Shown here in pieces: positions 6,638 to 61,750 of a stretch of 64,000 nt of DNA. The translations under genes and the position numbers were made by a program. Origin of the DNA: Methylacidiphilum infernorum V4. GTDB lineage: Bacteria > Verrucomicrobiota > Verrucomicrobiia > Methylacidiphilales > Methylacidiphilaceae. Each line of letters starts with the position of its first letter. Position 1 is the stretch's first letter. The DNA lies in NCBI RefSeq assembly GCF_000019665.1, contig NC_010794.1:372001-436000 (forward strand), given 5' to 3'. The notes below the pieces were generated by a model. That model saw only the letters and a list, made by a program, of their open reading frames with translations, searched no databases and was not told where the DNA came from.

Positions 6638-8326
6638 GTGAAAGAAAAAAATTTGTCTTCAGATTTAAAGATAGCGAGAGAAAAAAAACCTTTGGGTATT
6701 GAAGAGGTTGCCAAAAAATTATCGATCCCCCACGATGCCTTAGAACGTTACGGGGCATTTAAAGCAAAAATATCTTGGGAGTATCTAAAAGAGCTTTTTT
6801 GCCGCCCAAGACGGGGAAAGCTTGTTTTGGTCACCGCTACAACTCCTACTCCCGCAGGAGAGGGGAAAACGACTACGGCCATTGGCCTTACGGATGGGTT
6901 AAGCCGGTTAGGTCAAAAAGCTGCCCTATGCTTGAGGGAACCTTCAATGGGACCTGTATTTGGAGCCAAGGGTGCGGCTACAGGATCGGGACTGGCACAA
7001 CTTATCCCAAGGGAGGAGATTAACCTTCATTTTACCGGGGATTTTGCAGCCGTTGCTGCTGCCCACAATCTTTTGGCTGCTTTGATCGATAATCATCTTT
7101 ATCATGGAAATGATTTAGGCATTGATCCTAGAAAAATTTCATGGGGAAGGGTTGTAGATATCAATGATAGGGCGCTGCGAAAAATACTTGTTGGCCTAGA
7201 AAGTAAAAAATCTTTCCCGAGATTCTCTTTTTTCGATATCGTGGCCGCATCCGAGGTGATGGCGATTTTATGTCTTGCCCAATCTTACAAGGATTTAAGG
7301 CAAAGAATAGCCGACATCTGTATTGGTAGAGGGAGGGATGATAAAAATATTGACGCCGAGGAGCTTGGAGCTGCCGGGGCCATGTCCGTTCTCCTGGTTC
7401 ATGCATTTAAGCCTAATCTTGTTCAAACCTTGGAAAACAATCCCGCTTTTGTGCACGGCGGCCCTTTCGGCAATATCGCCCATGGATGTAGTTCAGTCGT
7501 CTCGTTGAATGCGGCATTGAGGCTGGCTGATTGGGTGGTCACGGAGGCCGGGTTTGGGAGCGATCTTGGAGGAGAAAAATTCGTCAATATCGTATGCAGG
7601 CAGAGTGGATTAAAGCCCGATTGCGCGGTGATTGTTACAACGGTCAGGGCTTTGAAGTTTCATGGAGGAATGACCTTGGATTGTTTAAACCAAAGAGATC
7701 TTTACTCCTTGGAAAAAGGATTCCCCAATCTTTTGAGGCACATTCAAATTGTGGAAGAAGTTTTGGGTATTCCTGCCGTGGTGGCATTAAACCGATTTTC
7801 AGCCGATAGCGGCGAGGAAATCGATTGGTTGGGCAAAAGGTTAGGTTCATTGGGTTATCCTTTTGCCGTCTGCAATCATTGGGCCCAGGGAGGAGAGGGA
7901 GCTGTTGAGCTGGCTCGGAGGGTTCTAGAGAGGAGCAGGCAGTTAAATTGCAAGTTGAATTTTACCTACGCTGACGGGGATCCCCTAATAAAGAAAATAG
8001 AAAAAATCGCCCTGAATGTTTATAAGGCAGGAAGCATTGCTTTGCACCCTCATGCGCAAGAGGAAATCAGAGTTATTGAACGGCAAGGACTGGATCAATT
8101 GCCTGTATGCATGGCGAAAACCCAATATTCCTTTTCTGTTGATCCCCGGTTGCGAGGTGCACCTGAAGGGCATGAGTTGTTCGTCAGGGAGCTTAGAGTT
8201 GCTGCCGGGGCAAAGTATATCCTTGTTTTATGTGGAGAAATCAATACCATGCCTGGATTGCCTAAGGTCCCTGCCTCTAGCTCCATGGATATTGATGAGG
8301 AGGGAAAGGTGATCGGAACGATCTGA
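6638..8326 (+). CDS. fhs: Formate--tetrahydrofolate ligase
   Basis: This 562-aa enzyme makes 10-formyl-tetrahydrofolate from formate, ATP and tetrahydrofolate, feeding C1 units into purine and serine metabolism. The N-terminus carries IAREKKPLGIEEVAKKL and the conserved YGAFKAKI. The P-loop PAGEGKTT is at residues 72-79, and REPSMGPVFGAKGAATG and NLHFTGDFAAVAAAHNLLAA follow as in the family. It ends with a conserved EINTMPGLPKVPA stretch. The start is GTG with no later Met before conserved sequence. In a methylotroph this enzyme could contribute to formate assimilation, but that is inference. It is a single gene, divergent from the resB-like gene. Confidence 0.96.
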   Translation: MKEKNLSSDLKIAREKKPLGIEEVAKKLSIPHDALERYGAFKAKISWEYLKELFCRPRRGKLVLVTATTPTPAGEGKTTTAIGLTDGLSRLGQKAALCLREPSMGPVFGAKGAATGSGLAQLIPREEINLHFTGDFAAVAAAHNLLAALIDNHLYHGNDLGIDPRKISWGRVVDINDRALRKILVGLESKKSFPRFSFFDIVAASEVMAILCLAQSYKDLRQRIADICIGRGRDDKNIDAEELGAAGAMSVLLVHAFKPNLVQTLENNPAFVHGGPFGNIAHGCSSVVSLNAALRLADWVVTEAGFGSDLGGEKFVNIVCRQSGLKPDCAVIVTTVRALKFHGGMTLDCLNQRDLYSLEKGFPNLLRHIQIVEEVLGIPAVVALNRFSADSGEEIDWLGKRLGSLGYPFAVCNHWAQGGEGAVELARRVLERSRQLNCKLNFTYADGDPLIKKIEKIALNVYKAGSIALHPHAQEEIRVIERQGLDQLPVCMAKTQYSFSVDPRLRGAPEGHELFVRELRVAAGAKYILVLCGEINTMPGLPKVPASSSMDIDEEGKVIGTI

Positions 8327-19968: not shown

Positions 19969-19996
19969 TTGATAAAAAAAATTATTTAATTATTAT
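19969..19996 (+). promoter_or_regulatory. Candidate promoter for the sdh operon with very short leader
   Basis: TTGATA (19969-19974) and TATTAT (19991-19996) are 16 bp apart; an overlapping TATAAA is at 19994-19999. The sdhC ATG is at 20008, so the transcript would start only a few bases before it. No Shine-Dalgarno is visible. Confidence 0.4.
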
Positions 19997-20007
19997 AAAA
20001 ATCGATT

Positions 20008-20700
20008 ATGCAATTACCGTCTCGATCTTATTCAACAATTGGATTGAAAATTGTCATGGGCCTGAGCGGTCTTATCTTATTTCTTTTTCTTGTTGTGCAC
20101 ATGCTCGGTAATTGGCAGGTGTTTCTTCCTCCTTACTACATGAACACTTATGCTTATTTTTTAAAATCGAAACCCCTCTTGCTGTGGACTATTCGGCTGT
20201 TTCTTCTTCTGACCCTGGTTGTTCATGTCTACACGGCGATAAGGCTGTGGAGAATCAACCGCAATGCTAGACCCTTTCCTTATGCTCTCATGCTCCCTAA
20301 TCAAGCGAGTTTTGAATCGCGAACCATGATCTTTTCCGGCTTTGTTATATTACTTTTTATCTTGTTTCATCTTTATCACTTTAGCTTTAAAGCTCCTCCA
20401 TTCGGGTATTTTAAAAATTTTCTCTATGTTTTTGAAAAATCCAAAGAATCGATCCCCGATGTTCGGGCGATGGTCATCGCCGGATTCCAAAATCCATGGG
20501 TGACTTTCTTTTATGTTTTCTCCTTAACCCTCTTGTTTTTACATCTCAGGCATGCCCTGGAGAGTTTTCTGAATTCATTAGGCTTTGTCAATAGTCGCTC
20601 TCTTCCGTGGGAAAAAATCGTTGCTCATGCCTTTGCTTTGGTCTTGTATGGGGGCTTTGTTGTTGTGCCTTTGGCTATATTTTTTAAGTTAGTTCATTGA
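20008..20700 (+). CDS. sdhC: Succinate dehydrogenase cytochrome b subunit (b558 type)
   Basis: This 230-aa integral membrane protein has five hydrophobic segments (around [79 protein letters not shown] and [20 protein letters not shown]). His residues near the membrane faces ([30 protein letters not shown]) are suited to haem binding, as in the single-anchor b558 family that carries two b haems. It anchors SdhA and SdhB to the inner membrane and passes electrons to quinone. It leads the sdhCAB operon, with 16 bp to sdhA. Confidence 0.95.
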
Positions 20701-39340: not shown

Positions 39341-39369
39341 TTGTTTGCATCCCATGAGCAATCTATAAT
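39341..39369 (+). promoter_or_regulatory. Candidate promoter for the M20 peptidase gene with near-leaderless start
   Basis: TTGTTT (39341-39346) and a perfect TATAAT (39364-39369) are 17 bp apart. The ATG at 39379 is only 9 bp after the -10 box, so the transcript should begin about 3 bases before it. No Shine-Dalgarno is present. Confidence 0.55.
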
Positions 39370-39378
39370 TTAATTTTT

Positions 39379-40620
39379 ATGCCCAAGGGTTCTACTGAAT
39401 GGATTTCAAAAAACCGGGAAAAGTTGTTTTCCCTTCTCGAAAGTCTTGTTCGTATTCCGACCATCAACCCTCCCGGAGAAAAATATTTAGAGATAGTGGA
39501 GTTTTTGGATGCGGAGTTCCGGCGCTTGGGATTGGAAACGCAGATTATCCAAGTACCCGAGGAGACGGTCAAAAAGCAGTTGGGATCGGCTTCTTATCCC
39601 CGGTATAATTTTATTGCCCGGTGGAACCTTCGAGCTGAAAAAACTGTTTTGTTTAATTCTCATTTTGATGTAGTGCCCGTATCCGGAAAATGGAAGCATG
39701 ATCCCTTCGGAGGGCAACGAGATGAAAAGTGGATATACGGTAGAGGCTCTGTGGATATGAAAGGCCCCCTGGCAGCCAGCATTTTTGCCTTGCAAGCCAT
39801 CAAAGAATTAAAAATCGATCCCGTTTTTAACGTGGAATATGCCCTTGTTGCGGATGAAGAAATCGGAGGGGAGTTGGGTTCGGGTTATATCGTTAAAAAT
39901 AAGCTTGTTAACCCAGATTTCGTTATCGTTTGTGAGGGAGGCTTAGGGAAAAAGATAGGCGTAGGGCATAATGGAATAATCCAGCTGAATGTCACCGTTA
40001 TAGGCCGAGCGTCTCACACGGCTTACCAGGATAAAGCCTTAAACTCTTTTCTAGAAGCGGTCAACCTGGTTAGCTTTCTGGAGGGATTTTTTAAAAAGAC
40101 GATGGGAGAAGCAAAAAGGGTATTTGTTTCTCCATCCAGGGAAAAACTCAAACCCATCGTCAATATCGGGGGAGTGGTTTCCTCTGGCCCTGGAGCGAAA
40201 ATCAACATTGTTTCCTCGGAAACTTCTTTTACCATCGACAGGAGACTGACTCCCTCGGAGAATCTGCAGGAAGTGGAGGAAGAGATCAGGGAAGCGATTG
40301 AAAAATGGTCGAAAAAGAGAAGAACAAAGGTGAGGATAGAAGTTATTCACAGGACAGAACCCTGTGCCATTGGTTGCGATTCTGACTTTACAAGGGCTTT
40401 CAAACAAGCCGTAGAAAAAATAAAGGGGAAAAAGGCGGTCTTTACCATAAGCAGAGGGGCCACGGATATGCATTTTTTCGTCAAGGGGCAAAAATGCCAA
40501 GCCGTTGGGTATGGCGTGGATGGCGAAGATATCCATGCCATTGAAGAAAGGGTTTCTATAGATGATCTTGTGAAAACTGCCCAGGTTTATGCAGAGTTCC
40601 TTTGCTCGCCCCGTCCTTGA
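39379..40620 (+). CDS. M20 family metallopeptidase (ArgE/DapE-like)
   Basis: This 413-aa two-domain enzyme has the metal site: SHFDVVPV (His), GRGSVDMKGP (Asp), ADEEIGGELGSGY (Glu-Glu), a Glu in VCEGGLGKK and a late His in GEDIHAIEER. The dimerisation lid lies between (GRASHTAYQDKALNSFLEA). It cleaves amide bonds such as N-acyl amino acids or succinyl-diaminopimelate; I cannot tell which. It is divergent from tldD. Confidence 0.93.
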   Translation: MPKGSTEWISKNREKLFSLLESLVRIPTINPPGEKYLEIVEFLDAEFRRLGLETQIIQVPEETVKKQLGSASYPRYNFIARWNLRAEKTVLFNSHFDVVPVSGKWKHDPFGGQRDEKWIYGRGSVDMKGPLAASIFALQAIKELKIDPVFNVEYALVADEEIGGELGSGYIVKNKLVNPDFVIVCEGGLGKKIGVGHNGIIQLNVTVIGRASHTAYQDKALNSFLEAVNLVSFLEGFFKKTMGEAKRVFVSPSREKLKPIVNIGGVVSSGPGAKINIVSSETSFTIDRRLTPSENLQEVEEEIREAIEKWSKKRRTKVRIEVIHRTEPCAIGCDSDFTRAFKQAVEKIKGKKAVFTISRGATDMHFFVKGQKCQAVGYGVDGEDIHAIEERVSIDDLVKTAQVYAEFLCSPRP

Positions 40621-42583: not shown

Positions 42584-42613
42584 TTGACATTTTTTGTAAT
42601 GTTTTAATATTAA
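42584..42613 (+). promoter_or_regulatory. Candidate promoter for the gldA cassette with short leader
   Basis: A perfect TTGACA (42584-42589) is followed after 18 bp by TATTAA (42608-42613); TAATAT at 42605 overlaps. The ATG at 42626 is 12 bp after the -10, with no Shine-Dalgarno, so the leader would be only a few bases. Confidence 0.5.
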
Positions 42614-42625
42614 AATCTCTTTTTC

Positions 42626-43564
42626 ATGATAAAGGTAGATAATCTTGTTAAAACTTATTCGGGTTATACAGCCCTCAATGGGATAAGTTTTGAAGTTAAA
42701 AAAGGGGAAATCGTGGGATTCCTGGGCCCTAATGGGGCTGGGAAAACGACGACGATGCGTATCCTGTCCTGTTATCTCCCTCCCACAAGTGGAAAAGTTG
42801 AAGTTGCCGGTTTCGATGTTCTTCAAAAACCAATTGAAATCAAAAAAAGGGTGGGATATATGCCCGAAAACGTCCCCCTTTACACGGATTTAAGGGTCAG
42901 CGAATATTTAAAATACAGGGCTAAACTTAAAGGAATAAGAGGAGGGCAGGTTAAAGAAAGAGTTCAATCGGTCCTCAAGCTTTGTCATATTGAAGAGGTC
43001 TCTTCAAGCATCATAGGAAATTTGTCCAAAGGGTATCGGCAGAGAGTAGGGCTAGCCGATGCCCTGATCCATGATCCCGATCTTTTAATTTTAGATGAAC
43101 CCACGATAGGCCTAGACCCTAACCAGATTCGCTCTGTTAGAGAATTGATTCGCAATTTAGGCCAACGCCACACGATTATTCTTTCATCCCATATTTTAAG
43201 CGAGGTTGAAGCCGTATGCAGCCGTGTTTTAATTATAAACAAAGGGAAGATCGAGGCGGCGGATACTCCAGAAAACCTTTCTAAACTTGTTCGAGGCGGC
43301 AGCGTTGGAGCGATACGCTTGGAGCTCTCCTGTAAGCCTTCAATAGCTAAAGAAGCATTTGAACTTATTGAGGAAGTGGAGGAAGCGGAAGTTTTAGAAG
43401 AATACCCGGGTGGCTGGACGGTCATTCAGATTTGGCCAAAACCGGGTAACGATATCCGGGATAGGATTTTCGATGTGGTACAGAAAAAGGGATGGCGACT
43501 CAGAGAGATGTCGAGAGTAAAGGCAACCTTGGAAGATATCTTTGTGGAGTTGACACAGGATTAA
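42626..43564 (+). CDS. gldA: ABC-2 transporter ATPase (GldA-like)
   Basis: This 312-aa ATPase has Walker A GPNGAGKTTTM, the signature LSKGYRQRVGLADALIHDP, Walker B LLILDEPTIGLDP and switch His in ILSSHILSEVEA. YMPENVPLYTDLRVSEYLKY is typical of GldA/NosF-like export ATPases. It is followed by two membrane-associated genes of the Gld type and a DUF4340 gene in one direction. The name follows the cassette, and no gliding motility is implied. Confidence 0.9.
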   Translation: MIKVDNLVKTYSGYTALNGISFEVKKGEIVGFLGPNGAGKTTTMRILSCYLPPTSGKVEVAGFDVLQKPIEIKKRVGYMPENVPLYTDLRVSEYLKYRAKLKGIRGGQVKERVQSVLKLCHIEEVSSSIIGNLSKGYRQRVGLADALIHDPDLLILDEPTIGLDPNQIRSVRELIRNLGQRHTIILSSHILSEVEAVCSRVLIINKGKIEAADTPENLSKLVRGGSVGAIRLELSCKPSIAKEAFELIEEVEEAEVLEEYPGGWTVIQIWPKPGNDIRDRIFDVVQKKGWRLREMSRVKATLEDIFVELTQD

Positions 43565-58140: not shown

Positions 58141-58383
58141 TTACTTTGTCTTCTTCTTTTTATTGGACGATTCTCCGATGAAAGAAATCTTACCGAAGCG
58201 TCGAGCAAATTTCTCGACCCTACCCGCCGTATCGACGAATTTTTGCTGTCCCGTAAACAAAGGATGGCAGGAAGCGCATATGCCAATTCGAATGGATGGC
58301 TTTGTTGATTTTGTCGTATAAACGGCACCACAAGCACAACTGATTGTTGTTTCTTGATAATTGGGATGAATATCCTTTTTCAT
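58141..58383 (-). CDS. rpmE: 50S ribosomal protein L31
   Basis: This 80-aa protein is the zinc-binding (C+) type: Cys16, Cys18 (CACG), Cys36 and Cys39 ([11 protein letters not shown]) form the knuckle. KKDIHPNYQ is the conserved start and [22 protein letters not shown] the conserved core. The tail is Lys-rich and slightly extended. It has no Shine-Dalgarno, and a promoter candidate sits just upstream. Confidence 0.95.
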
Positions 58384-58395
58384 TATGGGTTAGAC

Positions 58396-58424
58396 AATAT
58401 AGCTATATTTTCTGATCATTCAAA
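58396..58424 (-). promoter_or_regulatory. Candidate internal promoter for rpmE
   Basis: On the minus strand TTTGAA (58424-58419) and TATATT (58401-58396) are 17 bp apart. The rpmE ATG is at 58383, 12 bp after the -10, so a very short leader is predicted. The -35 overlaps the fabF stop codon area. Confidence 0.4.
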
Positions 58425-59660
58425 TCTTTTTATAATTATACAGGCATTATGCCCTCCAAAACCAAAGGAATTGTTCATGGCTATCTTGACTTTTTGTTCA
58501 CGAGCTACATTAGGAACATAATCGAGATCACACTGCGGATCGGGTTCTTCCAAGTTGATCGTTGGAGGAATGATTCCTTCTTCTATGGTTTTTATACAGG
58601 CTATCAGTTCCACCGCCCCCGCCGCCCCCAAAAGATGACCGGTCATCGACTTTGTTGAACTTATCGGTATGCGATAGGCATGTTTACCCAGCGCTTGCTT
58701 AATGGCCATGGTTTCGCATACATCTCCTGGAATAGTGCTCGTGGCGTGGGCATTAATATAGTTAATTTCTTCGGGATTAATTTGGGCTTTTTTTATGGCC
58801 ATGACCATTGCGCGGGTTGCACCTTCTCCGGAAGGATCCGGAGCGGTAATATGATGAGCATCGGCCGAAAGGCCATATCCGATTATTTCCGCATGGATTG
58901 GTCCATTTCTCTTTTTAGCATGCTCCAGCTCTTCCAGGACAACGATCCCGGCCCCTTCACTCAAGACAAAACCGTCACGATTCTTGTCAAAAGGGCGAGA
59001 AGCTCTTTGAGGATCATTATTCCTGAGACTTAAAGCTTTCATGTTGGAAAATCCGGCAAGTCCTAAAGGAACAATGGATGCTTCAGAGCCGCCGGCGATG
59101 ATGACGTCGGCATCCCCATCTTGAATCATGCGGTAGGCTTCACCAATAGAATGGGCTGCAGAAGCGCAAGCGGTGACGATCGCAAAATTAGGCCCTTTTA
59201 AATTATACTCAATGGCGATCATCCCAGATGCCATGTTGGAAATCATCATGGGAATCATGAGAGGGCTGCACCGAGAGGGCCCTTTGGTCAGAAGAATGGT
59301 ATGTTGATCCTCCAAGGTCTTTAAACCGCCGATTCCTGAACTGACAATTACCCCCAGCCTAGAGCTATCTTCTCTATCGAAATCTAAACCGCTGCTTTCA
59401 ATAGCCTCTTTACTGGCAGCCATGGCGAATTGAACAAAGCGGTCTGCCCTGCGGGCATCCTTGGGATTTTTGAAGTATTTCGCCGGATTGAAATTTCGAA
59501 CCTCCCCTCCAAACTTGCAGTCGAAGTCACGTGTATCAAAAGCGGTAATTTCTCCAATCCCACTTTCCCCGTTGACGAGACTGTTCCAAAATTGCTGGAC
59601 ATTATTCCCGTTGGGACTCACTAACCCCATCCCACTGATGACCACTCGCCTTTTGCTCAT
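58416..59660 (-). CDS. fabF: 3-oxoacyl-[ACP] synthase II
   Basis: This 414-aa condensing enzyme extends acyl-ACP chains. The active site is Cys (VTACASAAHSIG, about residue 163), with the two His in NAHATSTIPGD and MTGHLLGAAG. RRVVISGMGLVSPNG and FGFGGHNA are standard termini. It lies 38 bp downstream of acpP in a fabD-fabG-acpP-fabF order typical of bacterial FAS II. Confidence 0.97.
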   Translation of the reverse strand: MSKRRVVISGMGLVSPNGNNVQQFWNSLVNGESGIGEITAFDTRDFDCKFGGEVRNFNPAKYFKNPKDARRADRFVQFAMAASKEAIESSGLDFDREDSSRLGVIVSSGIGGLKTLEDQHTILLTKGPSRCSPLMIPMMISNMASGMIAIEYNLKGPNFAIVTACASAAHSIGEAYRMIQDGDADVIIAGGSEASIVPLGLAGFSNMKALSLRNNDPQRASRPFDKNRDGFVLSEGAGIVVLEELEHAKKRNGPIHAEIIGYGLSADAHHITAPDPSGEGATRAMVMAIKKAQINPEEINYINAHATSTIPGDVCETMAIKQALGKHAYRIPISSTKSMTGHLLGAAGAVELIACIKTIEEGIIPPTINLEEPDPQCDLDYVPNVAREQKVKIAMNNSFGFGGHNACIIIKRFE

Positions 59661-59698: not shown

Positions 59699-59953
59699 TT
59701 AACTTTCTTCTTCGAGGTTTTCTTCAATATATCGAATCACATCCCCAACGGTTTGCAACTTTTCTGCTTCTTCGTCCGGGACCTCGACGTTAAATTCTTC
59801 TTCAAAAGCCATGACGAGTTCTACGGTATCGAGAGAATCAGCGCCTAAATCCTCAATAAACCGTGCTTTTGGAGTAACCTGTTCAGGATTTACCCCTAAC
59901 TGCTCAACAATAATGTTTTTTACTCTTTCTTCGATCGATTTTTTTTCTGCCAT
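59699..59953 (-). CDS. acpP: Acyl carrier protein
   Basis: This 84-aa acidic protein carries the growing acyl chain on phosphopantetheine at Ser40 in [18 protein letters not shown]. The tail ends [12 protein letters not shown] at 59965 would extend it by four residues, but it lies inside the GGAGG used by the ATG at 59953. It is between fabG and fabF. Confidence 0.97.
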
Positions 59954-59985
59954 ATTTTCCTCCAATATGAAGATTTTCCTCCAAT
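59954..59985 (-). promoter_or_regulatory. Tandem 13-bp repeat containing the acpP Shine-Dalgarno
   Basis: ATTGGAGGAAAAT occurs twice on the minus strand, at 59966-59954 and 59985-59973. The copy next to the ATG gives the ribosome-binding GGAGG; the other is 19 bp upstream. A second ribosome standby site is one reading, but the duplication could be recent and neutral. Confidence 0.55.
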
Positions 59986-60043
59986 TTATGAGATATTCTT
60001 CTTAGCAATGTAAAAATTTTTTTTTCAAAATTTATCAGTAAAA

Positions 60044-60784: not shown

Positions 60785-61694
60785 TTTTTAATGCATTGAT
60801 AGATTCTACATTCGATAGTGTTAAACAACGAATATGAGGAGCTATTTTTTTTAAAAAATTTCCAAAAATTTTCCTTGGAGAAACTTCAATAAACAGTTCT
60901 ATGCCCCAATCAAGCATAAAATGCAAACTCTCTTCCCAAAGGACAGCCTTGCAAATCTGTTTGCTCAAAGTATAACGGATTTCATCAACATCTCGAGCTG
61001 GCGATGCCCTGAGATTAGTCACAACGGGCACAGAGGGCATTTTAAGGTCTACTTCCTTGAGAAGATCATAAAAGCTCCTTGACGGCTCTTCCATAAAGGA
61101 ACTGTGGAAGGGACCGGAAACTTCAAGGGGGATTACCTTTTTAATGCCTTCTGCATGGGCAAGTTTAACGGCCTTTGTAATGGAGGCGGCTGAACCGCTC
61201 AGAACCTGTTGATCGGGGGAGTTGTAATTAGCCACCTCGCAACTCGACCGGGCAGCAATGGATTCAGCTTGTTTTCTCGAAGAACCGATTAAGGCGACCA
61301 TTTTACCGGGATTCTTTTCCGAAGCTTCGTGAATGAGTCGGGCTCTTTGCTTGACAAGTTCAAGTCCGGTAAAGAAATCAAAGCTGCCGGCCGCCGCATA
61401 AGCGGTGAGTTCACCAAGGGACAATCCTCCCATCCCCAAGATATCTATTCCTTTTATTTCTTGGTGTAAAATCCTAAACACCGTGTATCCAAATACGAAG
61501 AGGGAAGGCTGGCAGTTTAGAGTTTGAGCTAACTCATCTTGTGGACCATGAAAAGATAATTGGCTTAAGGGTGAATGGAGATGTTTATCCGCTTCCAAGT
61601 AAAGATCCTTGGCTAAAGGGTAATGTTCGAAAAAATCTTTACCCATCCCTATCTTTTGTGCTCCTTGTCCGCAAAACAATAATCCGATCCGCAT
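60774..61694 (-). CDS. fabD: Malonyl-CoA:ACP transacylase
   Basis: This 306-aa enzyme loads malonyl groups onto ACP. The start MRIGLLFCGQGAQ (ATG at 61694) matches the family; an upstream extension to 61778 would add 28 non-homologous residues that overlap nth. The nucleophile motif is GLSLGE (Ser92); the usual GHSxGE His is Leu here. His in VSGPFHSSFM serves as general base. FabD length is usually about 310. Confidence 0.94.
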   Translation of the reverse strand: MRIGLLFCGQGAQKIGMGKDFFEHYPLAKDLYLEADKHLHSPLSQLSFHGPQDELAQTLNCQPSLFVFGYTVFRILHQEIKGIDILGMGGLSLGELTAYAAAGSFDFFTGLELVKQRARLIHEASEKNPGKMVALIGSSRKQAESIAARSSCEVANYNSPDQQVLSGSAASITKAVKLAHAEGIKKVIPLEVSGPFHSSFMEEPSRSFYDLLKEVDLKMPSVPVVTNLRASPARDVDEIRYTLSKQICKAVLWEESLHFMLDWGIELFIEVSPRKIFGNFLKKIAPHIRCLTLSNVESINALKNEL

Positions 61695-61750
61695 GATAGA
61701 TGAAAAAAATAGACGACAGAATTTTTTGGTCAAATCTAATCGAAAAGAAA

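Follow-up and report, generated by a model that had tools for sequence, protein, structure and literature searches.

The window analysed here is a stretch of 64,000 bases (bases 372001–436000) of a single-contig genome of 2,287,145 bases, labelled G000, whose host genus, tested by comparison with relatives, is Methylacidiphilum (Verrucomicrobiota, Methylacidiphilae). Four genomes of the same genus, G002, G003, G004 and that of Methylacidiphilum sp. Yel (G001), match at 71–83% and are, together with G000, the five genus genomes compared below; a sister genus is referred to as g3. Four genes in the window, those for an M20 family peptidase, a subunit of succinate dehydrogenase (sdhC), an ABC transporter ATPase (named gldA in the preliminary description and hence called gldA-like here) and ribosomal protein L31 (rpmE), had been described as having a −10 box shortly before the ATG. 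All four layouts are indeed present, with the boxes 8–12 bp away from the start codon. The features, with the boxes as read from the sequence, are the following (the gap is the number of bases between −10 box and start codon):

19969..19974, plus strand: −35-like TTGATA of sdhC
19991..19999, plus strand: −10-like TATTATAAA before sdhC, readable as TATTAT or TATAAA
20008..20700, plus strand: sdhC (succinate dehydrogenase cytochrome b subunit) coding sequence, Pfam PF01127, E 4.9e-5
39341..39346, plus strand: −35-like TTGTTT of the M20 peptidase gene
39364..39369, plus strand: −10 TATAAT of the M20 peptidase gene, spacer 17, gap 9 to the ATG at 39379
39379..40620, plus strand: M20 family peptidase coding sequence, Pfam PF01546, E 1.4e-36
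42584..42589, plus strand: perfect −35 TTGACA of the gldA-like gene
42602..42615, plus strand: 14-bp perfect palindrome TTTTAATATTAAAA, which holds the candidate −10 boxes of the gldA-like gene
42626..43564, plus strand: gldA-like ABC transporter ATPase coding sequence, Pfam PF00005, E 6.7e-30
58141..58383, minus strand: rpmE (ribosomal protein L31) coding sequence, Pfam PF01197, E 6.2e-31
58396..58401, minus strand: −10-like TATATT of rpmE, spacer 16, gap 12 to the ATG at 58383
58418..58423, minus strand: −35-like TTGAAT of rpmE, reaching into the last bases of the upstream gene (58416–59660)

The boxes of sdhC, the gldA-like gene and rpmE are weaker than those of the M20 gene. For sdhC, the −10 box is either TATTAT (19991–19996; spacer 16, gap 11) or TATAAA (19994–19999; gap 8), the ATG being at 20008. 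The −10 box of the gldA-like gene is ambiguous: the best compromise is TATTAA (42608–42613; spacer 18, gap 12), and the other candidates are TAAAAT, with a gap of 9 but a spacer of 21, and TAATAT, with a gap and a spacer of 15 each.

The start codons of all four genes are well supported. An in-frame stop codon begins 9–24 bases upstream (in the M20 gene TGA at 39355–39357), no ATG, GTG or TTG lies between this stop and the ATG, and the N-termini align with those of the relatives. For example, an IGLK segment downstream of the sdhC ATG also occurs in G002, G006 and G008, as read from the DNA alignment (the PF01127 score of sdhC, 23.9 bits, is below the cut-off of 25.8 bits). The M20 protein is 71% identical to its counterpart in Methylacidiphilum sp. 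Yel.

That the four genes have no Shine-Dalgarno (SD) sequence was also borne out, the duplex energies with the anti-SD tail of the 16S rRNA being −0.5 to +2.8, as compared with −9.3 for the GGAGG gene at 59953. Transcription usually starts about 7 nt, and up to about 10 nt, past the −10 box. Where the −10 box ends 9–12 bp before the ATG, the predicted leaders would therefore be roughly 0–6 nt long, which is near-leaderless.

Genes with a strong GGAGG, said to occur alongside, turned out to be rare: there is 1 among the 52 genes called in the window, and any of five SD 5-mers is found in 3 of the 52. The only GGAGG-led gene is the small and highly conserved one starting at 59953 (or 59965) on the minus strand, in the region 59699–59990. 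Upstream of it ATTGGAGGAAAAT occurs twice in tandem, at a distance of 19 nt; the second copy directly precedes the ATG, and the first is nearly kept in G002.

Conservation of the boxes in related genomes

The −35 and −10 boxes of the M20 gene are conserved in 5 of 5 Methylacidiphilum genomes. The −35 hexamer aligns with TTGTTT in G002 and with TTGACT in G003, G004 and Yel, and the gap of 9 is kept throughout, the −10 box being TATAAT in G002, TAGGAT in G003 and Yel, and TAGAAT in G004. In the M20 orthologues of the sister genus g3, the ATG or GTG is preceded by a purine-rich leader at the place where Methylacidiphilum has the −10 box; for example, GGGAGAGAGGGGAGAGAAAAA precedes the ATG in locus L017. 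These leaders were read in five loci (L014 and L016–L019; L012, L013 and L015 were left out) with assumed start codons. Judged from these alignments, the initiation mode of the M20 gene has apparently changed between the genera.

In the case of the gldA-like gene, the block from CTTGACATTTTTT to ATGAT is near-identical in all five genomes, with the TTGACA identical in each, whereas the DNA upstream of it diverges. The palindrome TTTTAATATTAAAA is a single copy within the 1,038 kb examined; its first 13 bases, TTTTAATATTAAA, are identical in the four relatives, and its last base is A in G003 and G004 and T in G002 and Yel. The palindrome may be an operator. For sdhC, TATTATAAA is kept in G002, where the ATG sits 3 nt nearer; a clear −35 box was not seen by eye in the G002 alignment.

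The weakest of the four cases is rpmE because its neighbour, which is on the same strand, ends 32 bp before it and because the −35-like hexamer overlaps the end of this neighbour. Conservation of the hexamer may be due to coding. It is an almost even possibility that rpmE is read from the transcript of the upstream gene and that its boxes are incidental, and the same may hold for other genes that closely follow a neighbour. The gap of its −10 box also moves, from 12 bp to 7 bp in G003 and G004, where the box is TATTTT. Against this, G002 has retained TATATT with a gap of 12 bp in spite of differing surrounding bases.

A further promoter-like layout near an ATG was found elsewhere in the window:

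61706..61733, minus strand: TTGACC-16-TATTTT, gap 11 to the ATG at 61694

The start at 61694 was set by comparison with G002, in which TTGACC and TATTTT also precede the orthologue, with a gap of 10; the coding-score caller had picked 61646. In another stretch (L106), two divergent genes with caller starts at 8246 (minus) and 8306 (plus), about 60 bp apart, each have TAAAAT close before the ATG (gap 5), and the two promoters would overlap.

Shine-Dalgarno use and promoter scan across the genome

In G000, an SD 5-mer (any of five) precedes 127 of 744 genes (17%), with 7% in control windows; in Escherichia coli the numbers are 50 of 128 genes (39%) and 1%. The 3′ end of the 16S rRNA (L007), GGATCACCTCCTTTCT, nevertheless keeps CCUCC. 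A published table gives 15% SD genes for the class Methylacidiphilae (PMC10783764). The share in G000 is low, but higher than the 0.1 to 8% of the SD-scarce groups exemplified in that paper, with which G000 has the retention of CCTCC in the 16S rRNA gene in common. In the parts of the paper available, the Methylacidiphilae do not figure in the SD-scarce tables and nothing was found on promoters of Methylacidiphilum. Since the SD sequence is missing from most genes of G000, its absence from the four genes is ordinary and constitutes weak evidence. It does mean that short leaders are permissible, which fits promoters at all distances from the start, the shortest being about 5 bp.

The frequency of such promoters was determined in the window and 49 further stretches (1,038 kb in all), in which the 744 genes had been called. 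The caller employs a coding score without upstream signal; for genes with an available G002 orthologue, comparison decided the start. Orthologues in G002 were found for 104 of 455 genes; one of these hits was dropped, and in five of the remaining 103 a shared start was lacking. Because collinearity with G002 is short beyond the window, starts outside the window mostly rest on the coding-score caller, which agrees with the comparative starts in 77 of 98 cases and with the E. coli annotation in 99 of 125. A promoter was defined as TAnnnT (at least 4 of 6) plus a −35 box at a spacing of 15–19, the two together scoring 8 or more out of 12 or, for stringency, 9 or more. The tested set consists of the 464 genes separated by 40 nt or more from their upstream neighbour ("far"); the near group has 235 genes, 45 of the 744 genes are without a called upstream neighbour and in neither group, and genes starting within 120 bases of the end of a stretch in their own reading direction were skipped. 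It should be noted that distance bins and score cut-offs were chosen after a first look and that the 464-gene sample includes an earlier one. In that first sample (332 genes), counts of TANNNT or a strong −10 box without a −35 box had given a weak excess (for strong boxes 7 versus 4.8 at a gap of 7–9 and 8 versus 5.0 at a gap of 10–12) and were given up.

At a gap of 5–13 bp, 32 of the 464 genes of G000 have such a promoter, as compared with 16.3 in 30 dinucleotide shuffles (sd 3.5, maximum 22), and 11 versus 3.9 (shuffle maximum 8) at a score of at least 9. The excess is modest and goes in the same direction in three genomes: G002 has 15/152 versus 9.1 (the shuffle maximum, 15, being equal to the observed number) and, at the stricter score, 8 versus 2.3 (maximum 5), and G003 has 13/130 versus 5.8 (maximum 10) and 5 versus 1.9 (maximum 6, which is above the observed number). 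G004 has 4/43 versus 2.5 (maximum 7), and the GC-rich g3 genomes have 1/138 versus 0.4 and 1/35 versus 0.1. When the stretches matching the window are taken out, G002 still has 11/108 versus 6.1 (reached by 10 of 200 shuffles) and G003 10/88 versus 4.5 (3 of 200). Wrong starts, about a fifth of the total, should dilute the excess.

The window alone contributes 7 of 33 genes versus 1.4, a number that none of 100 shuffles reaches. Because the window suggested the idea, its genes were set aside. Outside the window, 25 of 431 genes remain versus 15.0 (2 of 100 shuffles reach it), an excess of about 10 genes (2.3%); at a score of at least 9 there are 6 versus 3.7 (19 of 100), and in the 20 stretches fetched last 10/187 versus 7.2 (16 of 100). 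Split by the kind of start, it is 3/38 versus 1.5 for comparative starts (44 of 200) and 22/393 versus 14.0 for caller starts (4 of 200). A leaderless or near-leaderless mode recurring in this genome had been suggested from the four genes. What stands of this suggestion are the promoters of the M20 and gldA-like genes, conserved at a fixed distance from the ATG; genome-wide the support is only modest. Of the four genes, the automatic scan passes only those for the M20 peptidase and sdhC; the gldA-like gene is in the scanned set but gives no match, and rpmE was not called with its start.

Shuffles alone give about 16 of the 464 genes, half of the number observed, and 15 against an observed 25 outside the window, so that any single unconserved case stands at about an even chance of being fortuitous. 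That the four cases are all accidental matches in the extensive A/T-rich intergenic sequence is nevertheless quite improbable, given the conservation of the M20 and gldA-like boxes in all five genomes and the count within the window.

Recurrence in orthologues points the same way. Where a gene has TAnnnT at a gap of 5–13, its orthologue has it at an equal gap, give or take 1, in 9 of 18 cases in G002 versus 2.3 when permuted, in 4 of 9 versus 1.2 in G003 and in 4 of 8 versus 0.6 in G004. Recurrence is above permutation at other distances, too, for example 7 of 18 versus 1.7 at 32–40 bp in G002. Indeed, outside the window the bins of 14–22, 23–31, 32–40 and 41–49 bp hold 24, 21, 16 and 27 genes versus about 15 each. 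With neighbouring bins similarly enriched, the bin near the ATG does not stand out, and in the full sample it is above the mean of 14–49 bp at a Poisson p of 0.07 only. Near-leaderless promoters thus probably recur in the genome, modestly, at the near end of a range of short leader lengths rather than as a separate class.

As a control, the scan was applied to 150 kb of the E. coli K-12 genome. With annotated starts, a gap of 5–13 was found in 1 of 86 genes versus 2.5 and a gap of 14–22 in 1 versus 2.5, whereas the bins from 23 to 49 bp sum up to 20 versus 7.3; the starts of the caller gave 2 of 83 versus 2.2 at a gap of 5–13 and 12 versus 7.2 at 23 to 49 bp. As the scan recovers E. coli promoters at 23–49 bp in no more than about 13 of 86 genes in excess of expectation, the true share in G000 might, by extrapolation, be several-fold higher than the excess counted. 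In a bare TAnnnT count, plasmid sequence of Deinococcus gave the known sharp peak, 7 of 46 genes having TAnnnT at a gap of 6 with a background of 0.28 per position. In G000, bare TAnnnT is about 1.5-fold enriched at 4–20 bp with no single dominant distance, and at a gap of 9–13 its ratio (63 versus 42.8) is the same as in E. coli (10 versus 6.8). In G002 the enrichment is 1.1–1.4-fold; G003 has a deficit at a gap of 6–8 (5 versus 9.5), and the pair of g3 genomes has 5 versus 2.0 at a gap of 6–8.

A de novo search for hexamers at a gap of 5–13 gave no TATAAT-like word among the 14 listed; the top words were the SD words AAGGAG, AGGAGG and AAAGGA. Genes with a near promoter and other genes showed no significant difference in the share of ATG (p 0.41), in pyrimidine at −1 (p 0.20) or in SD pairing (p 0.06). 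A further explanation is that the real transcription starts lie further upstream and that the A/T-rich stretches before the start codons are ordinary non-SD initiation regions, weakly structured and possibly bound by ribosomal protein S1, with −10 look-alikes arising from A/T richness. With so few SD genes over background, most mRNAs must use something else; S1 domains are present in the genome; TA-like boxes are broadly enriched without a TATAAT peak; and one survey advises against simply attributing an A/T-rich bias at −20 to −10 to leaderless promoters, as S1 binding may be behind it (PMC5397173). We consider this explanation doubtful all the same, since the −35 and −10 regions of the M20 and gldA-like genes are conserved at a fixed distance in five of five genomes, and there is a modest excess over dinucleotide shuffles when a −35 box is paired with the −10 box.

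In the S1 gene of G000 (G000:C1:1005311-1006798, L133), the sixth S1 domain is split over two reading frames, an open frame of 468 amino acids being followed by short frames. In 4 of 4 other Methylacidiphilum genomes and in G006, S1 is encoded by a single open frame of 562–586 amino acids. The split is either real or an assembly error.

Proposed near-leaderless transcription and its relation to known systems

The explanation that we favour, with a confidence somewhat above even, is near-leaderless transcription of the M20 gene, the gldA-like gene and probably sdhC, recurring at a low rate. These genes would have ordinary housekeeping-sigma promoters with the −10 box 8–12 bp before the start codon, from which RNA polymerase is predicted to start on the AUG or within about six bases before it. 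The mRNA would leave no room for an SD sequence, and the ribosome, as 70S or as 30S with IF2 and initiator tRNA, would recognise the 5′-terminal AUG directly as in leaderless mRNAs. In an SD-poor genus, near-leaderless genes would form one extreme of a continuous series of very short leaders, accounting for a few per cent of the first-in-unit genes. A bolder version, which we regard as unlikely, is that, with SD signals mostly lost, promoters slide freely to the start codon and leader length is little constrained. Near-leaderless genes would then be perhaps at least a tenth of the first-in-unit genes, the switch would have occurred within one family, of which the sister genus keeps the purine-rich M20 leaders, and the gldA-like block with its −10 palindrome would be a regulated leaderless promoter.

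An abutting −10 box in front of leaderless genes is amply documented (PMC3160421; PMC12340547), and leaderless genes were found in 207 of 953 genomes (PMC3160421). What unites the so-called TA-led genes is a TAtaaT-like box at a distance of about 10 bp from the start and the lack of an SD sequence (Zheng et al., 2011, PMC3160421). A TA-like −10 box at about this distance is also what the four genes have (M20 9 bp, sdhC 8 or 11 bp, rpmE 12 bp, the gldA-like gene ambiguous and at best 12 bp). However, the de novo search for words near the starts did not recover the box as a leading motif here, so that G000 cannot on this basis be called a TA-led genome. The Verrucomicrobia are not among the groups with leaderless genes in that survey, the word being missing from its main text, and among the matches listed in the open-access literature no report was found of leaderless genes or mapped starts in Methylacidiphilum.

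A similar layout is the −10 motif adjacent to the open reading frame in Deinococcus-Thermus, where the −10 box abuts the start codon as it does here (PMC12340547). In D. radiodurans this motif lies about 6–7 bp upstream in nearly a third of the genes (PMC12340547), whereas in Methylacidiphilum the gaps are spread over 5–13 bp and the excess amounts to about 10 of the 431 genes that lie outside the window. In Akkermansia muciniphila, also a member of the Verrucomicrobiota, leaderless transcripts account for 10% of the transcription starts mapped by Cappable-seq, as compared with 0.4% in E. coli (PMC4782308). The Akkermansia starts were mapped experimentally, whereas those of Methylacidiphilum are predicted from sequence. 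Seen against these systems, the finding is sound but modest and a plausible extension of known biology. If confirmed by the mapping of 5′ ends, it would help to annotate gene starts and to design expression constructs for Methylacidiphilum, and it would extend leaderless expression to the acidophilic methanotroph branch of the Verrucomicrobiota, where comparison within one family of the purine-rich leader and the promoter-abutting start of the M20 gene would illustrate how initiation modes shift as SD use declines.
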